Assembly: GCA_911728435.2 (NCBI GenBank)
Contig: OU452201.1
Span: 27,776,001 to 27,840,000, forward strand
DNA: 64,000 nucleotides
Direction of reading: 5' to 3'
DNA from: Apoderus coryli
Lineage: Eukaryota > Arthropoda > Insecta > Coleoptera > Attelabidae
Both the position numbers and the translations under genes were made by a program. Positions 2,660-50,548 of this stretch are shown piece after piece. The stretch's first letter is position 1, and the number at the start of each line of letters is the position of its first letter. The notes under the pieces are model-generated. The model saw only the letters and a program-made list of their open reading frames with translations, was not told the DNA's origin and did not search any database.

Positions 2660-3028
2660 TACAGGGTGGTCCAACGAAAAGTTTGCACCTAGCTTTTCTC
2701 TTTTTTTTGTAGTCGAATGCGAAAATGCTCGGACACGTCGATTTTGCTTTTGAGGGGGACACATTTTAAACATATTTTTCGATCTGCGCCTTTAACCCCC
2801 TAGCGGGGGTGAGTAACAACCCTAAAATTTTAAATGGAAAGAGGGGTCTAATGACATATCATTTGAAAGGACACAAAATTGTCTTTCTAATGATACCCTA
2901 TTTGTCGAATTTTACTAAAACAGTTAATACGAAAACGACTTTAAAGACATTAAGCCGATAATTTTGGTATTAATGAGAAATACAAATAAGTTTTAATTAT
3001 TACGACTGAAAACAACTACAATCATTTC
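2660..3028 (+). repeat. Left long terminal inverted repeat
   Basis: Inverted copy at 4382-4750. It contains a short internal inverted motif (ACCCCCTAGCGGGGGT) near 2795-2811 on both arms. Confidence 0.9.
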
Positions 3029-3230
3029 TAAATTATTTACTTTGAAGAAAAACGGGATTTCAAAAACACTATCTTATTTATCAGAACTAAATTCCTCACT
3101 AATCGTTTGCGTTTTTTGTTGAAATAAAAACTGCAGATACGTGTAGGAAAAGAATTTACACCGTTTATTTTAGTCTTTTCATTGATTCAGTTTGGTTGCT
3201 TCTCAAGTTATTTTACTTTTACCGTACAAA

Positions 3231-4304
3231 ATGATTTATTCCATTCTAGAACGAGTTGAAATTGTTAAACTTTATTTTCAAAATAATAGTAGTGCTAGAC
3301 TTACGGCTCGCTTATTTAATGAGAGACATCCCGATAAAAATGTGAATGATGTGTACGTTGGCAAGTTAGTTAAAAAGTTTGTAGATACCGGATCTGTCTG
3401 TAATGTAAAACACCAGCCGCAGAAACCGATCAGAAATGAAGCTGTGGAAGTCGCTGTTTTAGGGCATGTTGAAATGGATCATAGTCAAAGTACCCGTCAA
3501 CTAGCTGAAGCCTCAGGTGTCTCCCGTTCGTCCATAATACGAATTTTAAAAGCGTACAAATTTCATCCGTACAAAATCAAATTAGTACAGGAACTAAATG
3601 AGGATGATCCTGATAGAAGGCTGCAATTTTGTGAAGCAATGAGCCAGCGTTTAATTGAAGATCCGCAATTATTATTTAACATTTGTTTTTCCGACGAATG
3701 CACATTTTATTTGAATGGAGCTGTAAATAGGCACAATTGCCGTTACTGGGATGACAGTAACCCACATTTATTCCGTGAGGTTCATACCCAGTATCCTCAA
3801 AAAATAAACGTCTGGTGTGGCATATTAGGAAATCATATTATAGGACCACTTTTTATTCCTGGAAATTTAACTGGTGAAGTGTACCTAAACATGCTTGAAG
3901 ACACAATTGATCCTTTAATAACACAAATAATAGAAGATGACCAAAATCATACTGCTGATCGGCTTTATTTCCAGCAAGATGGAGCACCTCCGCACTATGT
4001 GGCTCCTGTAAGACAGTTCTTAGATGACCGGTTCCCTGGACGGTGGATTGGAAGGAGGGGCCCAATTGAATGGCCTGCCAGGTCACCGGATTTATCGCCT
4101 TTAGACTTTTTTCTTTGGGGGCACTTAAAAAATAAATGTTTTGCCACGAAGCCCGAGTCCATAGAAGATCTTCGCCAACGCATTACAGAAGAGTGCAGAA
4201 ACATAACACCTGATATGCTACAAAATGTTAGAAATAGATTTGAACAAAATCTGTATTATTGTATGGAATCAAATGGGTCACATTTTCAACATTTGTTAAT
4301 GTAA
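3231..4304 (+). CDS. Transposase, Tc1/mariner superfamily, DD41D, DUF4817-type
   Basis: Transposase of 357 residues that would excise and integrate the surrounding element at TA sites in the nucleus. I start it at the ATG at 3231 (context ACAAAATGA). The frame is open to 3192 but without an upstream ATG. Residues 1-60 form the N-terminal helix-turn-helix region (FQNNSSARLTARLFNERHP). A second helix-turn-helix lies around 85-110 (STRQLAEASGVSRSSIIRIL). Catalytic residues are D155 in FSDECTFY, D250 in QQDGAPPH and D292 in SPDLSPLDFFLWG, with 41 residues between the last two. That spacing is described for rosa-like elements. The C-terminus SHFQHLLM is typical of the insect DUF4817 transposase group. 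No stop or frameshift is present, so the enzyme may be functional; expression is unknown. Confidence 0.95.
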   Translation: MIYSILERVEIVKLYFQNNSSARLTARLFNERHPDKNVNDVYVGKLVKKFVDTGSVCNVKHQPQKPIRNEAVEVAVLGHVEMDHSQSTRQLAEASGVSRSSIIRILKAYKFHPYKIKLVQELNEDDPDRRLQFCEAMSQRLIEDPQLLFNICFSDECTFYLNGAVNRHNCRYWDDSNPHLFREVHTQYPQKINVWCGILGNHIIGPLFIPGNLTGEVYLNMLEDTIDPLITQIIEDDQNHTADRLYFQQDGAPPHYVAPVRQFLDDRFPGRWIGRRGPIEWPARSPDLSPLDFFLWGHLKNKCFATKPESIEDLRQRITEECRNITPDMLQNVRNRFEQNLYYCMESNGSHFQHLLM

Positions 4305-4310
4305 CGTTTT

Positions 4311-4316
4311 AATAAA
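4311..4316 (+). promoter_or_regulatory. Polyadenylation signal of DD41D transposase
   Basis: AATAAA lies 7 bp after the TAA stop at 4302-4304, outside the right inverted repeat. Confidence 0.6.
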
Positions 4317-4381
4317 TCAATTTAACAGCTTGTTTACTTTTTTTACAAAGCAATGTTAAAACTAACAAACATTGGAATGTA

Positions 4382-10186: not shown

Positions 10187-10482
10187 TTTGTTGAAATATG
10201 GATAGATAAAATTAAATAAAACGAGTGCACACAAGTGATATCATTTCATGTCTAGTGTCCAGTACAAACTATCGGAACTTTTTTACTTGGATATTCTATT
10301 ATTTTTTACTTACCTGCTTAATTTTAGTTCAGTCGTACATTGAAGTACGTATGATTTCAATTTACATATACGTGAATTTTTGTTTAGAATTTTATTTAAT
10401 ATTTTAATAGATAATTAAGTTTGGGTTTATATATTTATTTTTCTTTTTTGCATAGTTACTTAATTAATAATACTATCCAGTT

Positions 10483-13413
10483 ATGGATCAGTACATTAGG
10501 GATTTTCAGGTCAACGAAATGGAATGCTCTAGAATTGATAACAGTCTTGAATTTTTTGAACGGGTTAATAAGGGATACTCGAAATTTAAAATTTTTCATT
10601 GTAATATAAGAAGTTTAAATAAGAACTTTAACGAAATATCAGTTACCATAAGCGATTTTGGTGACAATTATTTTGACATTTTAATTTTTAGCGAAACTTG
10701 GAGGCTGGAGCTCCCTGATTTGTTTGAAATGCCTGGATATTTTATGATATACAATGGTGGTAATGTGAATCAAAATGATGGTTTGGTGGTATATGTAAAG
10801 AATATTTATAGGCTACATTATAGCTATAATTTAGTGAATATAGGACGCATTAAAATGATTGCGTTAACCTTGAAAATAGAAAAACACAATATTTTAATAA
10901 ATGCACTGTATAGACCTCCAGCTACCTGTCCATATGATTTTAATATTAACTTAAGGAGTTATTTGGAGGCACAAATTTATAACAAGGACGATATTTGTTT
11001 TTTCATTGGAGATATAAACATAAACATCAAATCTGGGAAAGATTATTGCCAAGAATATTTAAATAATTTGAACGAGTTTGGTTTTGTATCTTTAATTAAT
11101 TCTATTACAAGAGAAAAAAATGGCTCAAGAACTTGCATTGACCACATTTTTGCAAAAAATTTAAATTCTAATTGCCAATCTTTTATCCATAACTTAGATG
11201 TGACCGACCACTATCCCATCGTTGTTGTTTTTGATGTTGAACCACCTAGAAGTCAACCTAAAAGAAATAAAGTTAGAAAGCTAAATGTAAGGAAGCTAGA
11301 AAATATGATTAAATTTGAAACTTGGAACGAAGTTTATAACTCAGATAATTTAGACTATGCGACTGAGGAACTCATTAAAAAAATCCAGAATGCAGTGGAC
11401 ACAGCTACAGAAGTCTTGTTAGTACGTGAAAAAACTAAAAAGAGACAACCATGGATTACATCAGGTCTTTTAAATTCTGTTAATACTAAACAAACCCTTT
11501 TCAAAAAATATCAAAACAATCCCCGAAATAGTGAAATTGAGCGTAAATATAAAACCTATAAAAATAAGTTGAAGAAACTAATAGATGAAACGAAAATTAA
11601 TTATTTTCAAAAAGAACTGGAAACTAATATGTCTAACACTAAGTCTGTTTGGAATATCATAAATAAATATACAAATAGTAGCAAAAAACATAATGATATA
11701 AACTCTCTTAAACATGGAGATAATGTGATAACTGATAAGAAAGAAATTTGTAATGCTTTTAATTCGTATTTTGCTACGATAGGAGAAAGTTTGGCTGATA
11801 CTATTCCTAAGCCCAAAACATCTGTTATTTCTAGAAATATTTTGAATAACTCTTTTTATTTTAACCCAACAGAGGAAGTTGAGGTGGGAAATATAATCCA
11901 TAATCTAAAATCACATAAAGCTCCTGGATTTGATTCCATAACATCCGAAACTTTAAAGACAATTAATATTTACGTTAAAAGACCAATGACTTTTATAATA
12001 AATAAGATAATTCAAACTGGTTACTTCCCAACTTGCTTAAAAGTAGGAGTAATCAAACCTCTTTACAAATCTGGGGATAGTTCTGAAATTTCTAATTACA
12101 GACCTATAACTCTCATATCGAGCATCTCTAAAATTGTCGAAAAAGTTATTAAAAACAGGATGACTACGTTTATAACTAAGTATAAATTAATATCAGAGAG
12201 ACAGTTTGGTTTTAAAGAGAATGTTTCTACTGAGGATGCAATCGTACATCTCACTAATGAAATCTATTCCAATTTGGATAAAAATAATAATGTAATATGT
12301 GTGTTTTTGGACTTAGCCAAGGCCTTCGATACTGTGGACCATGCAATTTTGATCAACCTACTAGAGGACATTGGCTTTAGAGGAGTAGCGCTTAACTTAT
12401 TTAAAACTTATCTGACAAATCGAATTAATTTTGTTCAGATTGATGACCAAGTAAGTATTGGAAGGCCTGTAAAATATGGAGTACCTCAAGGTACCGTTCT
12501 CGGACCAATTTTATTTTCCATATATATAAACGGCCTTTTGACTTTAAAAAGTACAGGACACATATCATCATTCGCTGATGATACTGTTATAGTATACTAT
12601 GGATCAACATGGAGTGAAGTTAAATGTAAAGCAGAAGTTGACCTTCAAAACATAAAGAAATGGTTTGACGAGATGTCTTTAACTATTAATATACAAAAAA
12701 CTAAATACTTACCAATTAGCTGCAATAGATCAAATACTCCGACATATAAAAAATTAAAGGTTACGGTAGAAGGCAATACTTTTGAAATTTTCGAAGTTGA
12801 ACATATAAAATACCTTGGAATACAGGTGGATCGATTTTTGAAGTGGGATAAACATATTCAATATGTGGTGAATAAATTGCGTACAATTTTGTTTAAATTT
12901 CGCCAATTAAAAAAAATTTTACAGGTTCCTCATTTAAGAATGATGTACTTCTCTCTAGTACAATCTCACTTGCAATACGGTATTGCAGGTTGGGGTGGTG
13001 CTTATAACAATCATCTTCGTCAATTAATTGTAATTCAAAAAAGATTTATCAAAGTGATATATAATAGGAAATTTGATTATCCAAGTGATCTACTTTATGC
13101 TGAAAGTAATTTTCTCGATCTAAGGCAATTATATGTTCTAAAGGTGGCGGTGTTTCAACATAGAAGGCGACATGAGTTGCAAAACATATCACATGGTCAC
13201 AATACCAGGCATAAACAGACAAAAGGGATAAGAACAGCAAAATCAGCAAAATCTATGACTCAGCGATCTTATTTATTTTTAGCTGCCAAAATATATGCTA
13301 CTATTCCATTTGAAACGAGACAAATTGTGAAAGATATTCTATTTAAAAAATATGTAAAAAAATGGCTCTACCATACTCCAAGAATGACTATACACAAACT
13401 AATAGAAATTTGA
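10483..13413 (+). CDS. LINE ORF2 polyprotein (AP endonuclease and reverse transcriptase)
   Basis: 976 residues, starting at ATG 10483 after stops in the same frame. The N-terminal apurinic-like endonuclease nicks target DNA. Its motifs are HCNIRSLNKN (39-48), SETW (E71), YRPP (143-146), GDININI (D177, N179), CIDHIFAKN (D220) and DHYPI (D242, H243). The reverse transcriptase spans about 515-760 with NYRPITLIS, FLDLAKAFDTVDH (D610), GVPQGTVLGPILFSIYINGL and FADD (D699, D700). The C-terminal region (about 850-960) has the conserved LINE tail seen in several relics here. All catalytic residues are present and the frame is uninterrupted, so target-primed reverse transcription may still be possible. 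The 296-bp gap from ORF1 has no gene. Confidence 0.93.
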   Translation: MDQYIRDFQVNEMECSRIDNSLEFFERVNKGYSKFKIFHCNIRSLNKNFNEISVTISDFGDNYFDILIFSETWRLELPDLFEMPGYFMIYNGGNVNQNDGLVVYVKNIYRLHYSYNLVNIGRIKMIALTLKIEKHNILINALYRPPATCPYDFNINLRSYLEAQIYNKDDICFFIGDININIKSGKDYCQEYLNNLNEFGFVSLINSITREKNGSRTCIDHIFAKNLNSNCQSFIHNLDVTDHYPIVVVFDVEPPRSQPKRNKVRKLNVRKLENMIKFETWNEVYNSDNLDYATEELIKKIQNAVDTATEVLLVREKTKKRQPWITSGLLNSVNTKQTLFKKYQNNPRNSEIERKYKTYKNKLKKLIDETKINYFQKELETNMSNTKSVWNIINKYTNSSKKHNDINSLKHGDNVITDKKEICNAFNSYFATIGESLADTIPKPKTSVISRNILNNSFYFNPTEEVEVGNIIHNLKSHKAPGFDSITSETLKTINIYVKRPMTFIINKIIQTGYFPTCLKVGVIKPLYKSGDSSEISNYRPITLISSISKIVEKVIKNRMTTFITKYKLISERQFGFKENVSTEDAIVHLTNEIYSNLDKNNNVICVFLDLAKAFDTVDHAILINLLEDIGFRGVALNLFKTYLTNRINFVQIDDQVSIGRPVKYGVPQGTVLGPILFSIYINGLLTLKSTGHISSFADDTVIVYYGSTWSEVKCKAEVDLQNIKKWFDEMSLTINIQKTKYLPISCNRSNTPTYKKLKVTVEGNTFEIFEVEHIKYLGIQVDRFLKWDKHIQYVVNKLRTILFKFRQLKKILQVPHLRMMYFSLVQSHLQYGIAGWGGAYNNHLRQLIVIQKRFIKVIYNRKFDYPSDLLYAESNFLDLRQLYVLKVAVFQHRRRHELQNISHGHNTRHKQTKGIRTAKSAKSMTQRSYLFLAAKIYATIPFETRQIVKDILFKKYVKKWLYHTPRMTIHKLIEI

Positions 13414-13539: not shown

Positions 13540-13573
<34 letters not shown>
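13540..13573 (+). repeat. 34-nt A run in LINE 3' UTR
   Basis: Uninterrupted A tract 126 bp after ORF2. It is internal, because LINE 3' sequence continues for another 320 bp. It could be an old poly(A) end or simple expansion. Confidence 0.8.
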
Positions 13574-13575
<2 letters not shown>

Positions 13576-13865
13576 AAATAAAAAAAAATTATTCAATTAC
13601 ATTTTTCCTAATAATATTAAAAATTTTTTAGTTTATAATTTCTAGTTTTATATTACTTTTGGATTTAGACTATGGATATTTGATTTATACATGTTTTATA
13701 TATTTTTTCTCTGTATGGGTATATAAATTATCTATGTGCCTTATTGTTATTGTATGTATTTGAGAAGAACTCAGCCTGGAACTTTTTTATATATTACACC
13801 CCACACACTAGTCCTAGGACTTCAGTGGAACTATTGTATAAATGAGTGAAAAGGTACATTGTGGT

Positions 13866-45717: not shown

Positions 45718-46400
45718 CTTAATAGAGTATAACCTGACACATTAACTTAAGATCACATTGGCGTTCGAAAAAGGGTAAAAAGGGGTTAAAAACTTAAAAA
45801 AAAAAACATATTTAAGAATTGCTTGTTACAAAAAGCAACAAGACTTTAAGTTATGTTGGAAATTTGTTTCACACTACCATGCTTTCACCAGACGGCCGTT
45901 TCGTCAATTCACGACTCATCAGTGGTGAACGGCAGGCAGTGTGACCCAAATTTCCAACATTTACAGAAAGCTTATACTAGCACGAGAATTGACAAAAAAC
46001 ATCTCTCTCAAAAACATATTTACTAAACATAACAGAAATAATGACTAGTTATTTATAGCTTTGATAGCATATAACCTATGAAATGTATCATAAATAACTT
46101 GCTTACATAAGGCGTTCGTAAAAAAATGGAAAAGGGGTCAAAACAAAAAAAAAAATACTTTCAATATAAACTGTATAATTAATTTAATATAATTATATTA
46201 TTATAATTTATAAGCGTTTTCAAATATTGTAAAAATGGGTTAAAAATAAAATATACGAGTATATATTATATAGGTAACTATATTCCGAGATATATTCCCC
46301 AAACATACTAGAAAAATTGGCTTTGGCAAATTATATCTAGTTTTGATACAAAATAACCTACAAAATAAAAAAACTTGTTTACATAAACGTTCATAAATAG
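45718..46400 (+). repeat. Cluster of diverged satellite-like units
   Basis: Units of the form TATAACCTA...AAATG(T)ATC...CTTGTTTACATAA.GCGTTC.TAAA...AAAAGGGGT(C/T)AAAA recur at about 45718, 46060 and 46340, and again at 47808-47940. The ribozyme structure at 45853-45960 interrupts the series. Confidence 0.6.
45853..45960 (-). ncRNA. Type I hammerhead ribozyme in a 108-nt rod
   Basis: On the minus strand TTCACCA (45929-45923), CTGATGA (45922-45916), stem II GTCG/TGAC with loop TGAAT, GAAA (45902-45899), stem III from the palindrome ACGGCCGT, cleavage triplet GTC (45893-45891) and TGGTGAA (45890-45884) occur in exact hammerhead order. Stem I is a perfect 7 bp. It continues across an 8/8 internal loop into CACACT/AGTGTG and, after a 3/3 bulge, a perfect 14-bp closing stem (45853-45866 with 45947-45960). 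All invariant core bases are present and there is no extra base before stem II. Hammerheads of this type are known from Penelope-like elements and retrozymes. Confidence 0.85.
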
Positions 46401-46984
46401 TAGTTTTGTGACTGTGTCAAAACTTTCCTACCTTTGTTATACATTTTTTGAAAACTGAGCTTTAACAAATTTACTATCACATCACGGCCGCCCAAACAAC
46501 ATACTAAACTTGGTTAAAGGTATTACAGCGATTTCATTTTATCACTATGCGCTAACGTAGTTTTTTTTGCCTTATCCAAAGCTGGGTGCCTGGAAAAATA
46601 CGTTATTGCCTTATCCATCCAACTCCAGCAGAGCTTAAACTTTTTTTCATAACATATACAGTTGCTGCTAAAACTTAATCGATATCGTGATGCATTTAAC
46701 GGCTTTCTGTCTATTTCTATTACACATTTTGAATATACATCTACGGGAGGATAAGTTTGGTATTTTGTCGCTGAAGTTTTAGGAACTTAACTTGATATTC
46801 GATAGGAGTAATGTTTTTGAAGTATAGAGAATATTAAGAAAAAATAGTTTTAAAGATTTAGCATGACAATACTACTACTCTCAGCAACTCCCAATGGCGG
46901 ATGATTTCGCGGCGAGTTTTATACGACATTTATAGTGTTTCCAGATATATAATAAGATTATAATATTCGGTTATAAATTTAATG
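46401..46984. other. Spacer
   Basis: No gene recognised. Confidence 0.4.
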
Positions 46985-47630
46985 GCTTAACCGAGGGCTT
47001 AACATTAAGCGGGTGGAATCAGTGAGGGATTTAGGTGGTGTTATCATATATGCAAAGTATTCGTTTGCTGAACATATCAATTAAACAGTTAACGCCGAAT
47101 TTAAAAGATTAGGCTTTGTTGTTCATAACTCGAGGATTATGAATAATCTGAGCACTCTGACTACACGTCAAGTCTTGTCAGATCCAAACTCGAGTATGTT
47201 TGTATTATATGGATCCAGTTTACATAAAGTATAAGACTCAGGTTGAGGGTGTTCAGAGAAAATTTTTTTGGCATAGTATAGGATAGATGCTCATTAACTA
47301 TGTAGAGTTGTTGACCAGCGGCTGTTGCTGGATTGATTTCAATTTGATTCGCTGTTAAATAGAACGAAAGTTTATGTATACAATCTGCAATTCATTGATT
47401 GACTGCCCTGAACTTCTTTCTCGTGTTTCGTTTACAGCACCAATTCGTACAACTAGAAATGCGCTTCCTTTTTAGAATCCCATTCCTACTACCAATTTAC
47501 TCAAGCAAACCCCAATTTATGCTACCTCTGAGCTTTTTAATATACACTGTTCTGATACTGATGTGAATTATATTAGGTATCGAAGATTTTGTAGTTTCAT
47601 CGCTGATGTAATTCAATCTCATTGAAATGT
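46985..47630 (+). pseudogene. LINE ORF2 RT-thumb and C-terminal relic
   Basis: The frames read VRDLGGVIIYAKYSFAEHIN, VNAEFKRLGFVVHNSRIMNN, LSTLTTRQVLS, then after gaps LIDCPELLSRVSFTAPIRTT, RNALPF and SDTDVNYIRYRRFC. It is the Jockey/CR1 segment after the RT active site through the C-terminus, with several stops. No RT active site is present to the left. Confidence 0.82.
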
Positions 47631-49050
47631 GAAGTTTGTTGTTTTAATTAATTTTTCTTTTTCTGTAATTGGTTTACTGAATGTATTTTCTTTTTATCTT
47701 ATTTTATTTCGGCCTAGGTATGATATATTGTGATTTTATATATATATATATATGTATATGCATTGTCTTGTTGTTGGAGGTGTCTTCTACTTGTTTACAT
47801 ATGCTTTCATAAATAGTAGAAGAAGCGTCAAAAAAATTAGACTGTAAAAATTATATATTTAGCCTTTAAATAGTTGAATTGGTGTTAAAAATACACGACA
47901 CAAAATGGCCTTCGTAAATAGTAGAAAAGGGGTTAAAATATGGAATCATTTAAATAAAATATAGCTGATGATAAAATAAAAAATGAATTCATTTAGAAAT
48001 ATAGCTTGTCACCAACGAAAAAGGTAAAAGCCAAAAAATTACGGATATATAACTTTTACACTCAAATATGGAAAGCTATTCGTGCCTCGAGGGCAACAGT
48101 TTATTCCCCCTTTATTTATAATTTTTAATAAAGTAGTTAGGTAGTTGAGTTAGTTTAGAATGTTATTATTAATATTTTTATTATTATAATCATCTAAATA
48201 ATGGTGTATTTTTTAGATTTTTTTGATGAAAACATTTTGTTACCCCGGTGATATATTTTAAATTATAAAGTACAGCATCCGCAGTGAACTCCACTATAAA
48301 TTATTGAGGCGATATCGATAGTTCAATCTTCGGCAAAGCTTTGGGGTGAAAACAACAGATTTTTTATATTCATTGTCGCCCCGGGATATGCTGACAAGCA
48401 ATTTTTACCTACTATTTTGAAAAGTTTTTTGAACGAAATACTTACAAGATCACTTCATAACTTTCCAAGGAAAATCAAAAAAATAGTCAAATAAATCTAT
48501 TGAACTCCAGTAAGAAAATTTGGCTTGGTTAAAATTGTTTAGAAACCATCAACACACGAATATCAATAGATTATGAAATGACTTTGGACAATTTCTGTAC
48601 TCTCGGCTGACACAAACAATATTTTATCAGGAAAGGCACTTCATATAAAATAAAAGCATGCTTTCAACAATCTTCCTTTCAGCTTTGAAGCATATTTTGT
48701 GCTGGTGTATTTTATAGTAACGCGATAAAGAATTTTTGATCGATGACTAGTAAATTACATAGGTACAAAGCTATTATGTACAAAATTTTAATGCTCCTAC
48801 AGCAGATTTTAAAAGCGTTTTGAAATATTAGTTTTACAGGATGAGTCAAACTGGGAATTTGAGAAAGTGTTTACAATAAACTAACTAGTACTTAAAGGTC
48901 ACCTCGAGTAACTATTATGGGGTTTGTATAGGATGCCACAAATTAGTTTTGTAAAGTTAATTCCTATTCAGTTGTTGAACAATTATTTTATAATAACTAT
49001 GTTATGTTTTCGTCCTGTATTTGTAATTTAAGATGATGGTATGTTTGTGA
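47631..49050. other. Spacer with diverged repeats
   Basis: Contains a satellite-like unit (47808-47940), a partial inverted copy of the 37020 repeat (48003-48110) and a short TA tract near 47740. No gene recognised. Confidence 0.4.
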
Positions 49051-49099: not shown

Positions 49100-49392
49100 T
49101 AAGTAGACAGTAAGAATGATGACATAATGTTGTTTTAAAACATATAATAAAAAAAAAAGTTTTTAATTGTAAACGTACCGAAGCCCAAAGAATATACATA
49201 ACGTCGTCGGTTGAGAAGAAAACTATCCTATGTCCATTTTTTTGAAAAATGAGTTATTGACATAATATCCTAAGTCCTACGTAATTCTAGCTTGTGAAAT
49301 ACTATCCAAAGTCCTAAGAAGCCGTATGGTGAATAAAAGTTGTTTCTACAATAATATCATAACTTTACCCCCTTCTCTGCCAAAAATATTCT

Positions 49393-49427
49393 ATTATCCT
49401 ATGTCCATGATTTGGACATAGGATAAT
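49393..49427. repeat. Perfect 15-bp hairpin
   Basis: ATTATCCTATGTCCA and its exact inverse complement are separated by TGATT. The half-site ATCCTA(T/A)GTCC recurs at 49228, 49267 and, degenerate, at 49306. Confidence 0.9.
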
Positions 49428-49606
49428 AATACGCTTAGTTTTTTTTGCGCCGTACGGACTAGGTTTATACACGAGTTCCTATTTTTTAATGTGTTTTGTT
49501 ATCGCCAAATTAAATTTATTATAAAATAATGTGTTCTAGGCAATAGTTTTACACATAAACAAGGTAAGTTATATAGTTATAGTAGAATTTATTATAAATC
49601 TTTATA

Positions 49607-49804
49607 TTCGAAATTGCCAAGCAGATTAAAAATAAAGCGAAGAAGTGCAGAAATCTTGGGAAGTCTTACACTAGCAGCAAAAATAAAATAGTTCCCGAGA
49701 AGAAAATTAAAAATAGTAGGAGAAAGAGGTCATTTTGTTACCACTTACTTTCGGAAGGAGGAGAAAGAGTGAAAGTTTGTCAGAGATTTTTCCTTAATAC
49801 TCTG
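49607..49804 (+). pseudogene. RNase-H-fold-like gene, 5' segment (split)
   Basis: The open frame reads IAKQIKNKAKKCRNLGKSYT, then KIVPEKK, then FCYHLLSEGGERVKVCQRFF and LNTL. The frame stops exactly at the border of the transposon 49805-52390 and resumes at 52393 with GISHQIVKTVAKKQ. The NLGKSYT... VKVCQ.FFLNTLGIS order is one I recognise from a multicopy insect protein family with no settled name. The upstream start is not identified; GTAAGT at 49564 could be a donor of a leader intron. No stop lies in this segment. Confidence 0.7.
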
Positions 49805-50548
49805 CCCAACTAACAATTTAACTTTTTTAATTGCTGTAAGAACATTTATAAAATATATTTTATAAAACACCCATTGTTTTATAAACATTTTCACAACGTT
49901 CTTACGCGCCTTATAAACACGAAAAAGGCGCAGATTTATAAAACAAATCGACTCTTTAACGGTTCTATAAATGTTGCTTGTTGCTATTATACAATAGTTT
50001 TTAGAACGTTTATAAATATTTAATAAAAATCAAATAAAACTGTTATAAACATATTTTATAAATCTTTTATAAGAGCCTCAATTTCAACATTTTTGCTCTC
50101 AGCGGCAACAGTTAAAGGATAAAAACGTTTTTTTTAAATACCTTTTTATACAAAATTATTTTATAATTATTATGCATTGTTGTTGGTACACATTAATAAA
50201 ATCTGAACAATCATGGAGGTAAAAATAATATAAAACGCTATAATACCCAATAATGAATAATAAAATAAGTCAGATAAAATTCACCCATGAGCAGATTTGG
50301 CTGCGAAACAAAATTTACTGTTAAATATATTGTATATTATTACTAAAATTTTAATGCGCCTCGTGAATTATGTAAATTAATGAATTTAGATTTTATAAAT
50401 TATATAAAATATTTTTTTTATTGTCACTTATTGTTGAAAATAATCTTTTGGTATATCCTTCATTATGTAATGACTGATTCTGTATACCTTACTAGCTAAG
50501 ATAATTTTATAAATTATAAAAAATATTAATTTTAAAAGTTTGGTCAAC

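Follow-up and report, generated by a model that had tools for sequence, protein, structure and literature searches.

A hammerhead retrozyme of Apoderus coryli with a two-armed insertion anatomy tied to Penelope-like elements

Introduction

Hammerhead ribozymes with the Hammerhead_1 core and topology and a short stem III occur in the satellite DNAs of newts, schistosomes and cave crickets. A type I hammerhead also marks the metazoan non-LTR retrozymes, whose hosts include insects and which are described as units of ~170-400 nt that form multimers, carry no LTR, primer binding site or polypurine tract, are flanked by target duplications longer than 4 bp, and occur as RNA of unit length in both a linear and a circular form (Cervera and de la Pena 2020, PMC7229834, main text). 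On indirect grounds, the same text proposes Penelope-like elements (PLEs) as their motor.

PLE insertions are themselves known to contain an inverted copy and an optional tail on one side, and extension of two strands has been described for Anolis (PMC3846280 and PMC11167929, accessible text). The protein of the Anolis element, PAc, cuts and extends both strands and uses two adjacent start sites inside its RNA, with no difference seen in vitro between the start sites of the top and the bottom strand (PMC11167929, accessible text). For the PLEs of Adineta, which have target duplications of 8-10 bp, the accessible text of PMC3846280 proposes self-priming, reports no cross-mobilisation between PLE types, and holds enzyme and RNA to be co-adapted.

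Here we describe a new animal retrozyme whose insertions have features beyond those in the published accounts covered here, features that connect it with the Penelope machinery. Head-to-head arms, a fixed pair of end sites and a PLE-retrozyme chimera are not described in the text of PMC7229834 that was covered. In the literature covered, which comprised the accessible text of PMC7229834, PMC11167929, PMC3846280, PMC7761336, PMC2837043 and PMC4918198 and part of the subscription literature, we came across no account of retrozymes inserted head-to-head, of a one-site-per-end rule in retrozymes, or of such a chimera.

Results

A hammerhead enclosed in a short insertion

The window, by which we mean the whole 64,000-nt stretch of DNA that was analysed, contains a type I hammerhead ribozyme (Table 1) whose match to the Hammerhead_1 model (E = 9.8e-5) barely exceeds the gathering score of 34. 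The original prediction had drawn a 108-nt minus-strand rod here, with every invariant core base, a 7-bp stem I and a 14-bp closing stem. That rod is confirmed, its GTC ends where the prediction had placed it (45891), and the covariance search that it proposed returned Hammerhead_1 on the minus strand, only just above the threshold. As a sequence match the ribozyme is secure, and its RNA may cleave itself at the GTC. The core letters read CTGATGA, GAAA and GTC, stem I is followed by an 8/8 internal loop in which the computed fold places some pairing, and stem III is ACGGCCGT; the arms of the rod are 38 nt each and 82% complementary, with the 14 outermost base pairs perfect. Core, topology and short stem III are those of the newt, schistosome and cave cricket hammerheads (in part PMC7229834 and PMC2837043, accessible text). 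What differs from RF00163 is stem I, which is drawn out here to a rod of 108 nt whose 14 closing pairs are all perfect.

The bare hammerhead core pattern has 2 matches in the window, against 0.20 expected, and is weak evidence when taken alone. Rfam at E up to 1, the core pattern and BLAST together gave no further convincing hammerhead in the window, and the exact ribozyme pattern had 0 matches in the viral contigs searched. The second core-pattern match lies at 47965-48010 on the plus strand.

Table 1. Positions in the window of the ribozyme, the retrozyme insertion and its target duplication
Feature	Position	Strand	Basis or remark
Type I hammerhead ribozyme	45885-45928	-	Rfam RF00163, 34.1 bits
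108-nt rod, a hammerhead with extended stem I	45853-45960	-	Arm complementarity, core letters
Predicted cleavage point, 3' of GTC	between 45891 and 45890	-	Core position
Entire retrozyme insertion, 195 bp, two-armed (long minus arm and short plus arm)	45815-46009	-	Target duplication and unit decomposition
Target site duplication, left copy, AAAAACATATTTA	45802-45814	.	Perfect 13-bp repeat
Target site duplication, right copy, AAAAACATATTTA	46010-46022	.	Perfect 13-bp repeat
Long arm, unit 237 through 338/1 to ~82	45815-45992	-	Outer (left) end at putative start site 1 (~80)
Short inverted arm CAAAAAACATCTCTCTC, ~17 bp, ~unit 220-236	45993-46009	+	Outer end at putative start site 2 (~240)

The rod is only part of the element, since it is enclosed by an insertion that has a target duplication of its own and that is shorter than one 338-nt unit of the family described below. 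The alignment of the long arm to that unit extends to 45809, because 6 nt are common to the arm and the target duplication, and the short arm was aligned as 45997-46011 in the decomposition. The landing site is diverged repeated DNA (45760-47954), made of a unit beginning GGCGTTCG that is represented by a reference copy and three others at 60-75% identity; the earlier observation that the rod interrupts satellite-like units is consistent with this. Whereas PLEs encode a reverse transcriptase and a GIY-YIG endonuclease, the window element is, at 195 bp, too short to code for them.

Family 1 in the genome

The assembly searched comprises 428 Mb in 129 contigs. A 136-bp query gave 237 candidates and a query of two units 1410 at first look; the best 40 were scored in each case, and 150 of the 201 matches to the two-unit query were listed. 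The family to which the window copy belongs, family 1, was seen at at least 65 loci, that is, the 26 of the 136-bp query, L050 from the Rfam search, and the 40 clusters of the two-unit query, two of which are L035 and L036. Counted from the cleavage point its unit is 338 bp. A search for tandem copies had been suggested: exact 338-bp copies stand in a row at some loci, but most copies are not plain tandem arrays and consist of two opposed arms with the 3' ends of the ribozyme strand pointing outward. Family 1 shares the type I hammerhead, the unit size (338 nt), the multimers and target duplications of more than 4 bp with the metazoan retrozymes of PMC7229834 (main text), which are published as tandem repeats, whereas the arrangement here is head-to-head.

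Thirty-four distinct ribozyme stretches were obtained. Twenty-one were aligned, 18 from family 1 and 3 from a sister family, and 13 were omitted because an arm junction interrupted them, their register was shifted or they were redundant. The hammerhead core is almost invariant in the aligned set, with core changes in L012 and L051; among the omitted stretches, changes in or beside the core are found in L016 (-), L050 (+), L051 (-) and L052 (-). The sister family retains a long rod of different sequence. One detail of the original prediction, that the window copy differs from other copies in lacking an extra base before stem II, is not supported: BLAST with the family-1 unit at E < 0.1 finds no second copy in the window, and the aligned family-1 copies share the window copy's spacing at this point.

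One end site for each end

Twenty-seven family-1 insertion loci, the 26 that cover the best 40 matches of the 136-bp query together with L050, were decomposed into stretches of the circular unit, with the unit as sole reference. Left out of this count were older second copies in L013, L041 and L052, a relic in L070, and the sister-family loci L004 and L051; the older copy in L041 is two-armed (80/229) with a 7-bp repeat. A flanking duplication of at least 8 bp (range 8-15 bp) is present at 21 of the 27 loci, with those of L038 and the window taken from a separate flank-repeat search, and none is clear at the other 6. Many of the duplications overlap the letters of the insertion ends by microhomology, and those of L041 (a TA run) and L035 (A-rich) are of low complexity.

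Sixteen of the 21 duplicated copies are two-armed (L013, L015, L035-L039, L041, L042, L044-L046, L048, L049, L053 and the window), and every one of these 16 has an outer end at each of two sites, unit positions 78-84 and 234-243. The remaining 5 are one-armed and end at 78-85 (L022, L040, L043, L047) or at 242 (L007). Of the 6 loci where no duplication is clear, three (L010, L012, L054) have a single arm from ~80, and L016 (186/241), L050 (83/194) and L052 (78/145) are two-armed with only one of the two sites; these last are counted against the rule. The 40 clusters of the two-unit query are '-+' in 30 cases, single-strand among the matches listed in 9, and '+-+' in 1. Their readable outer 3' ends number 41, with 39 at 78-84 or 234-242 and 2, again counted against the rule, at 227, and every cluster with both outer ends readable pairs ~80 with ~237 (8/8). 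If the two sites were chosen evenly and independently, the chance of 24 mixed pairs in 24 would be ~6e-8, a figure that excludes L016, L050 and L052. As we read its sequence, the single two-armed copy examined from sister family 2 (L002) has the repeat CAATTAGATTTATG, of 14 bp, and its two ends lie where the counterparts of the two sites are.

The inner junctions at which the arms meet are diverse: some are near-palindromic (L035, L036, L039, L045, L046) and others join distant unit positions (309/46 in L037, 110/333 in L015, 24/234 in L044). In L036 (4023-4101) the arm junction of the array falls within the palindromic stem III, beside the cleavage point.

Units diverge by 0.7% within an arm, by 1.3% between segments of one locus and by 3.7% between loci. 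Adjacent units differ in some insertions (4/84 in L042, 7/158 in L007), so that a single circular monomer would not suffice as template without a template switch or later mutation. We do not claim that all arms and rounds of one insertion derive from one RNA molecule. Comparison with other loci had a mixed outcome, being suggestive of such an origin in L015, L039, L040, L041 and L048, mixed in L042, L053 and L054, and unsupportive in L007, L013, L016, L049, L050 and L052, with young identical copies uninformative. The 1290-bp spacer of L038 was considered as a captured transcript and rejected, because it has inverted repeats at both ends; this stretch of ~1.3 kb (3065-4354, ends CAGTGTTGTTGC...GCAATAACAACACTG) is probably a nested DNA transposon.

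Penelope-like elements of the same genome

A GIY-YIG search gave 1260 candidates, of which the best 150 were scored, and the neighbouring pairs within 5 kb among these 150 matches are 18 of the '-+' form and 0 of any other. For nine of the 18, all from one subfamily, both ends were read: in 8 a plain end is paired with an end that bears a 34-nt tail, whichever way round, and L071, with one plain and one aberrant end, is counted against the rule. Target duplications in the PLE insertions read are 12-14 bp. One truncated copy codes for RVT_1 and GIY-YIG, and the best-scoring named relatives of the Penelope protein (best 120 of 339 matches) come from two longhorn beetles and Tribolium. The PLEs read contain their own minimal hammerhead-like core, which Rfam at E up to 1 did not report; measured from its predicted cut in L070, the plain end is 50 nt and the tailed end 84 nt further 3'. 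L071 also holds a long hairpin at 3024-3115 (-) that scores 48.5 bits against the MIR774 model, below the cut-off of 80, and is probably an inverted-repeat element.

The insertions of the retrozyme have the anatomy of PLE insertions, in that they are head-to-head, have a short target duplication and use one site per end; the retrozyme works like a PLE and is not one. Head-to-head inverted arms and short target duplications are common to it and to the EN+ PLEs of Adineta and Anolis (PAc), and an end with an optional tail is common to those EN+ PLEs and the PLEs of this genome (PMC3846280 and PMC11167929, accessible text). The Anolis PLE, for which two start sites are described, resembles the PLEs here in having a type I hammerhead (PMC11167929, accessible text). 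The end sites of the retrozyme are 160-178 nt apart in sequence, as against ~34 nt in the PLE.

That the retrozyme is a cut-down PLE was considered and rejected, as BLAST against 17 PLE loci gave no match at E < 0.1 except in L070, where a separate old retrozyme copy lies beside the PLE and weaker pieces of the same copy match too. PLEs are elements separate from the retrozyme. The original prediction had offered a retrozyme-like or a Penelope terminal insertion, and the first of these is borne out: the 338-bp units are dispersed in many copies, bear a type I hammerhead, form multimeric arrays and have target duplications. The second is wrong when taken literally, since the family-1 unit has no BLAST match at E < 0.1 in the 17 PLE loci beyond that old copy and so is not a Penelope end, and right in spirit, since the insertion anatomy is that of PLEs. 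BLAST found no sequence similarity between the start regions of retrozyme and PLE, which we count against our main reading.

As a control we used the LINE of the window, which we take to be of the I/Jockey type. It has an open 980-aa frame with RVT_1 at 10471-13413 (+) and an A-rich tail at 13540-13588. Its 92 matches include no pair within 5 kb, a weak control because only the best 92 of 35164 candidates were scored. Eleven genome matches, itself included, are at 99-100% protein identity over the reverse transcriptase part, so that this LINE has been active recently.

A second retrozyme and a chimera

In L069 (1693-2555), 863 bp of a second retrozyme family lie exactly between PLE arms, and there is one outer target duplication. 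This retrozyme repeats in L069 with a 519-nt period, and neighbouring full copies in the genome often start 525 nt apart. It scores 20.6 bits (E 0.88) against Hammerhead_HH9, under the cut-off of that family, so that its assignment as a hammerhead comes from the core letters. The family is abundant, with many nearly identical copies genome-wide that also occur head-to-head. A search gave 1428 candidates, of which the best 39 were scored, with 150 of 226 matches listed; the 39 clusters are '-+' in 21 cases and single-strand among the matches listed in 18. Their outer 3' ends (n=43) fall at query positions 350-359 (11) and 377-396 (32), and all 8 clusters in which both ends are readable have one end of each class. 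In L069 the switch from PLE to retrozyme is at query position 344, near the first end site. Since a nested insertion would have had to hit the arm junction exactly, the simplest reading is that the PLE enzyme jumped from its own template to retrozyme RNA. One PLE-retrozyme chimera, that of L069, was seen.

Predicted folds of the unit

The circular fold of the 338-nt unit has an energy of -108.9 kcal/mol (60 mononucleotide shuffles: mean -78.6, sd 5.7) and consists of the ribozyme rod and a distal arm that are connected by one open junction. Both end sites lie in its unpaired stretches, 71-87 and 218-245. Over 10 distinct full family-1 units, mean probabilities of being unpaired range from 0.54 to 0.86 at 74-84 and from 0.33 to 0.98 at 228-243 (above 0.85 in 9 of the 10), against 0.36-0.44 overall. 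The second retrozyme unit is only partially open at its end sites, and two open start sites were not seen in the circular fold of a diverged family-2 unit from L004. We put forward the open junction holding both end sites as a suggestion, because the fold was examined after the ends were known.

The minimum free energy folds conceal the hammerhead core. The hammerhead fold is less stable by ~11 kcal/mol according to nearest-neighbour energies, which take no account of hammerhead tertiary contacts, and given this preference for other pairing, cleavage may depend on a dimer or on tertiary contacts. Cofolding of two ribozyme cores gave no clear dimeric hammerhead.

Discussion

The window element is probably a copy of a non-autonomous retrozyme that was moved by a PLE reverse transcriptase priming from both target strands. 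In support are the Rfam match, the dispersed family with its target duplications, the paired end sites, the parallel with the PLEs and the second family, the chimera, and the Anolis PLE protein with its extension of both strands. We infer that the ribozyme cleaves, that the RNA is circular, that the end sites are where reverse transcription starts, and that a PLE enzyme is the motor. In such a pathway the type I hammerhead would cut multimeric retrozyme RNA into 338-nt units, which may be closed into circles. The GIY-YIG PLE reverse transcriptase of the same genome would take this RNA as template and cut AT-rich DNA with a stagger of mostly 11-14 bp, and both cut ends would be extended on the RNA, one from around unit position 80 and the other from around 240. 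Each cDNA would cover part of the unit or run round it several times, and joining of the two cDNAs in the middle would leave a head-to-head insertion flanked by a target duplication.

A more specific version, which we hold tentatively as possible rather than probable, is that the retrozyme RNA, probably a circle, carries two dedicated priming sites on opposite sides of the open junction, and that a PLE-type enzyme, probably a dimer, feeds one cut strand to each site so that both are extended at once, in what would be a two-primer rolling-circle reverse transcription. If so, the use of one site per strand would govern integration in general, both for PLEs and for the retrozymes that live on them as parasites. 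The finding that the Anolis start sites show no strand difference is a mismatch with a strict rule of this kind. Also to be set against a PLE motor are the Adineta work, in which PLE types did not cross-mobilise and enzyme and RNA were viewed as co-adapted, the five duplicated copies with a single arm, the differing adjacent units, the concealed ribozyme core, and the restriction of the PLE insertions read to one subfamily.

Within a single genome, retrozyme and PLE insertions carry the same two-ended scar with one site per end, and in one case the two are joined, which bears on the question of the retrozyme motor. It also hints at how both strands are started in PLE integration, a process that is little understood, and the RNA sites named here can now be tested with purified protein.

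Several other explanations must be weighed. With a PLE motor retained, the template could have been an uncleaved linear multimeric transcript, in which case the ribozyme and the circle would be dispensable for insertion. Ribozyme mutants of the Anolis PLE RNA do insert normally in vitro (PMC11167929, accessible text), neighbouring units differ in L042 and L007, and the core is concealed in the predicted fold. Against a linear template, units are more alike within an arm or a locus than between loci, although this is partly the signature of one young subfamily; most copies have a well-conserved ribozyme core, and circular RNA is known for animal retrozymes (PMC7229834, main text). We consider it unlikely, if by no means negligible.

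It is distinctly improbable, again with a PLE motor, that the first cDNA folded back and primed the second arm itself, instead of that arm starting from the other target strand. The near-palindromic inner junctions would fit self-priming, but cDNAs of the same sense should in any case be joinable only at local inverted repeats, which would give palindromic junctions anyway. A second preferred site at the far end would not be expected, yet 16/16 copies have one, and the inner junctions of L037, L015 and L044 connect distant positions of the unit.

To a LINE of the I/Jockey type as motor, with the inverted arms as a product of ordinary L1-like twin priming, we give little credence. Twin priming of the L1 type yields inversions as well, from a second start point that varies, and recently active LINEs are present, the window's own being one of the 11 nearly identical matches. 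However, the second start of the retrozyme is nearly fixed, the window LINE ends in a long A tract and the retrozyme does not, and 0/92 LINE matches have a neighbour within 5 kb, weak as that control is with the best 92 of 35164 candidates. It is the PLEs that have the same anatomy and the one-site-per-end rule, and the chimera in L069 links the retrozyme to a PLE, not to a LINE. Finally, spread as DNA, by a palindromic transposon or satellite in which the hammerhead is incidental, is scarcely credible, for although head-to-head arrays resemble inverted-repeat elements, the two ends differ, arm lengths run from 14 to more than 1400 nt, the arms meet at many unit positions, and target duplications are 8-15 bp.

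Other features of the window lie apart from the retrozyme. A match at 49778-49844 (-) to the Dictyostelium class I RNA model (28.9 bits, below the threshold of 41.5) is probably due to chance. An open transposase-like frame of 372 aa occupies 3186-4304 (+), with a DUF4817 helix-turn-helix above the cut-off and a Tc3 transposase match below it, and a perfect 16-bp inverted repeat with a 5-nt loop (TATTATCCTATGTCCA) is found at 49392-49428.
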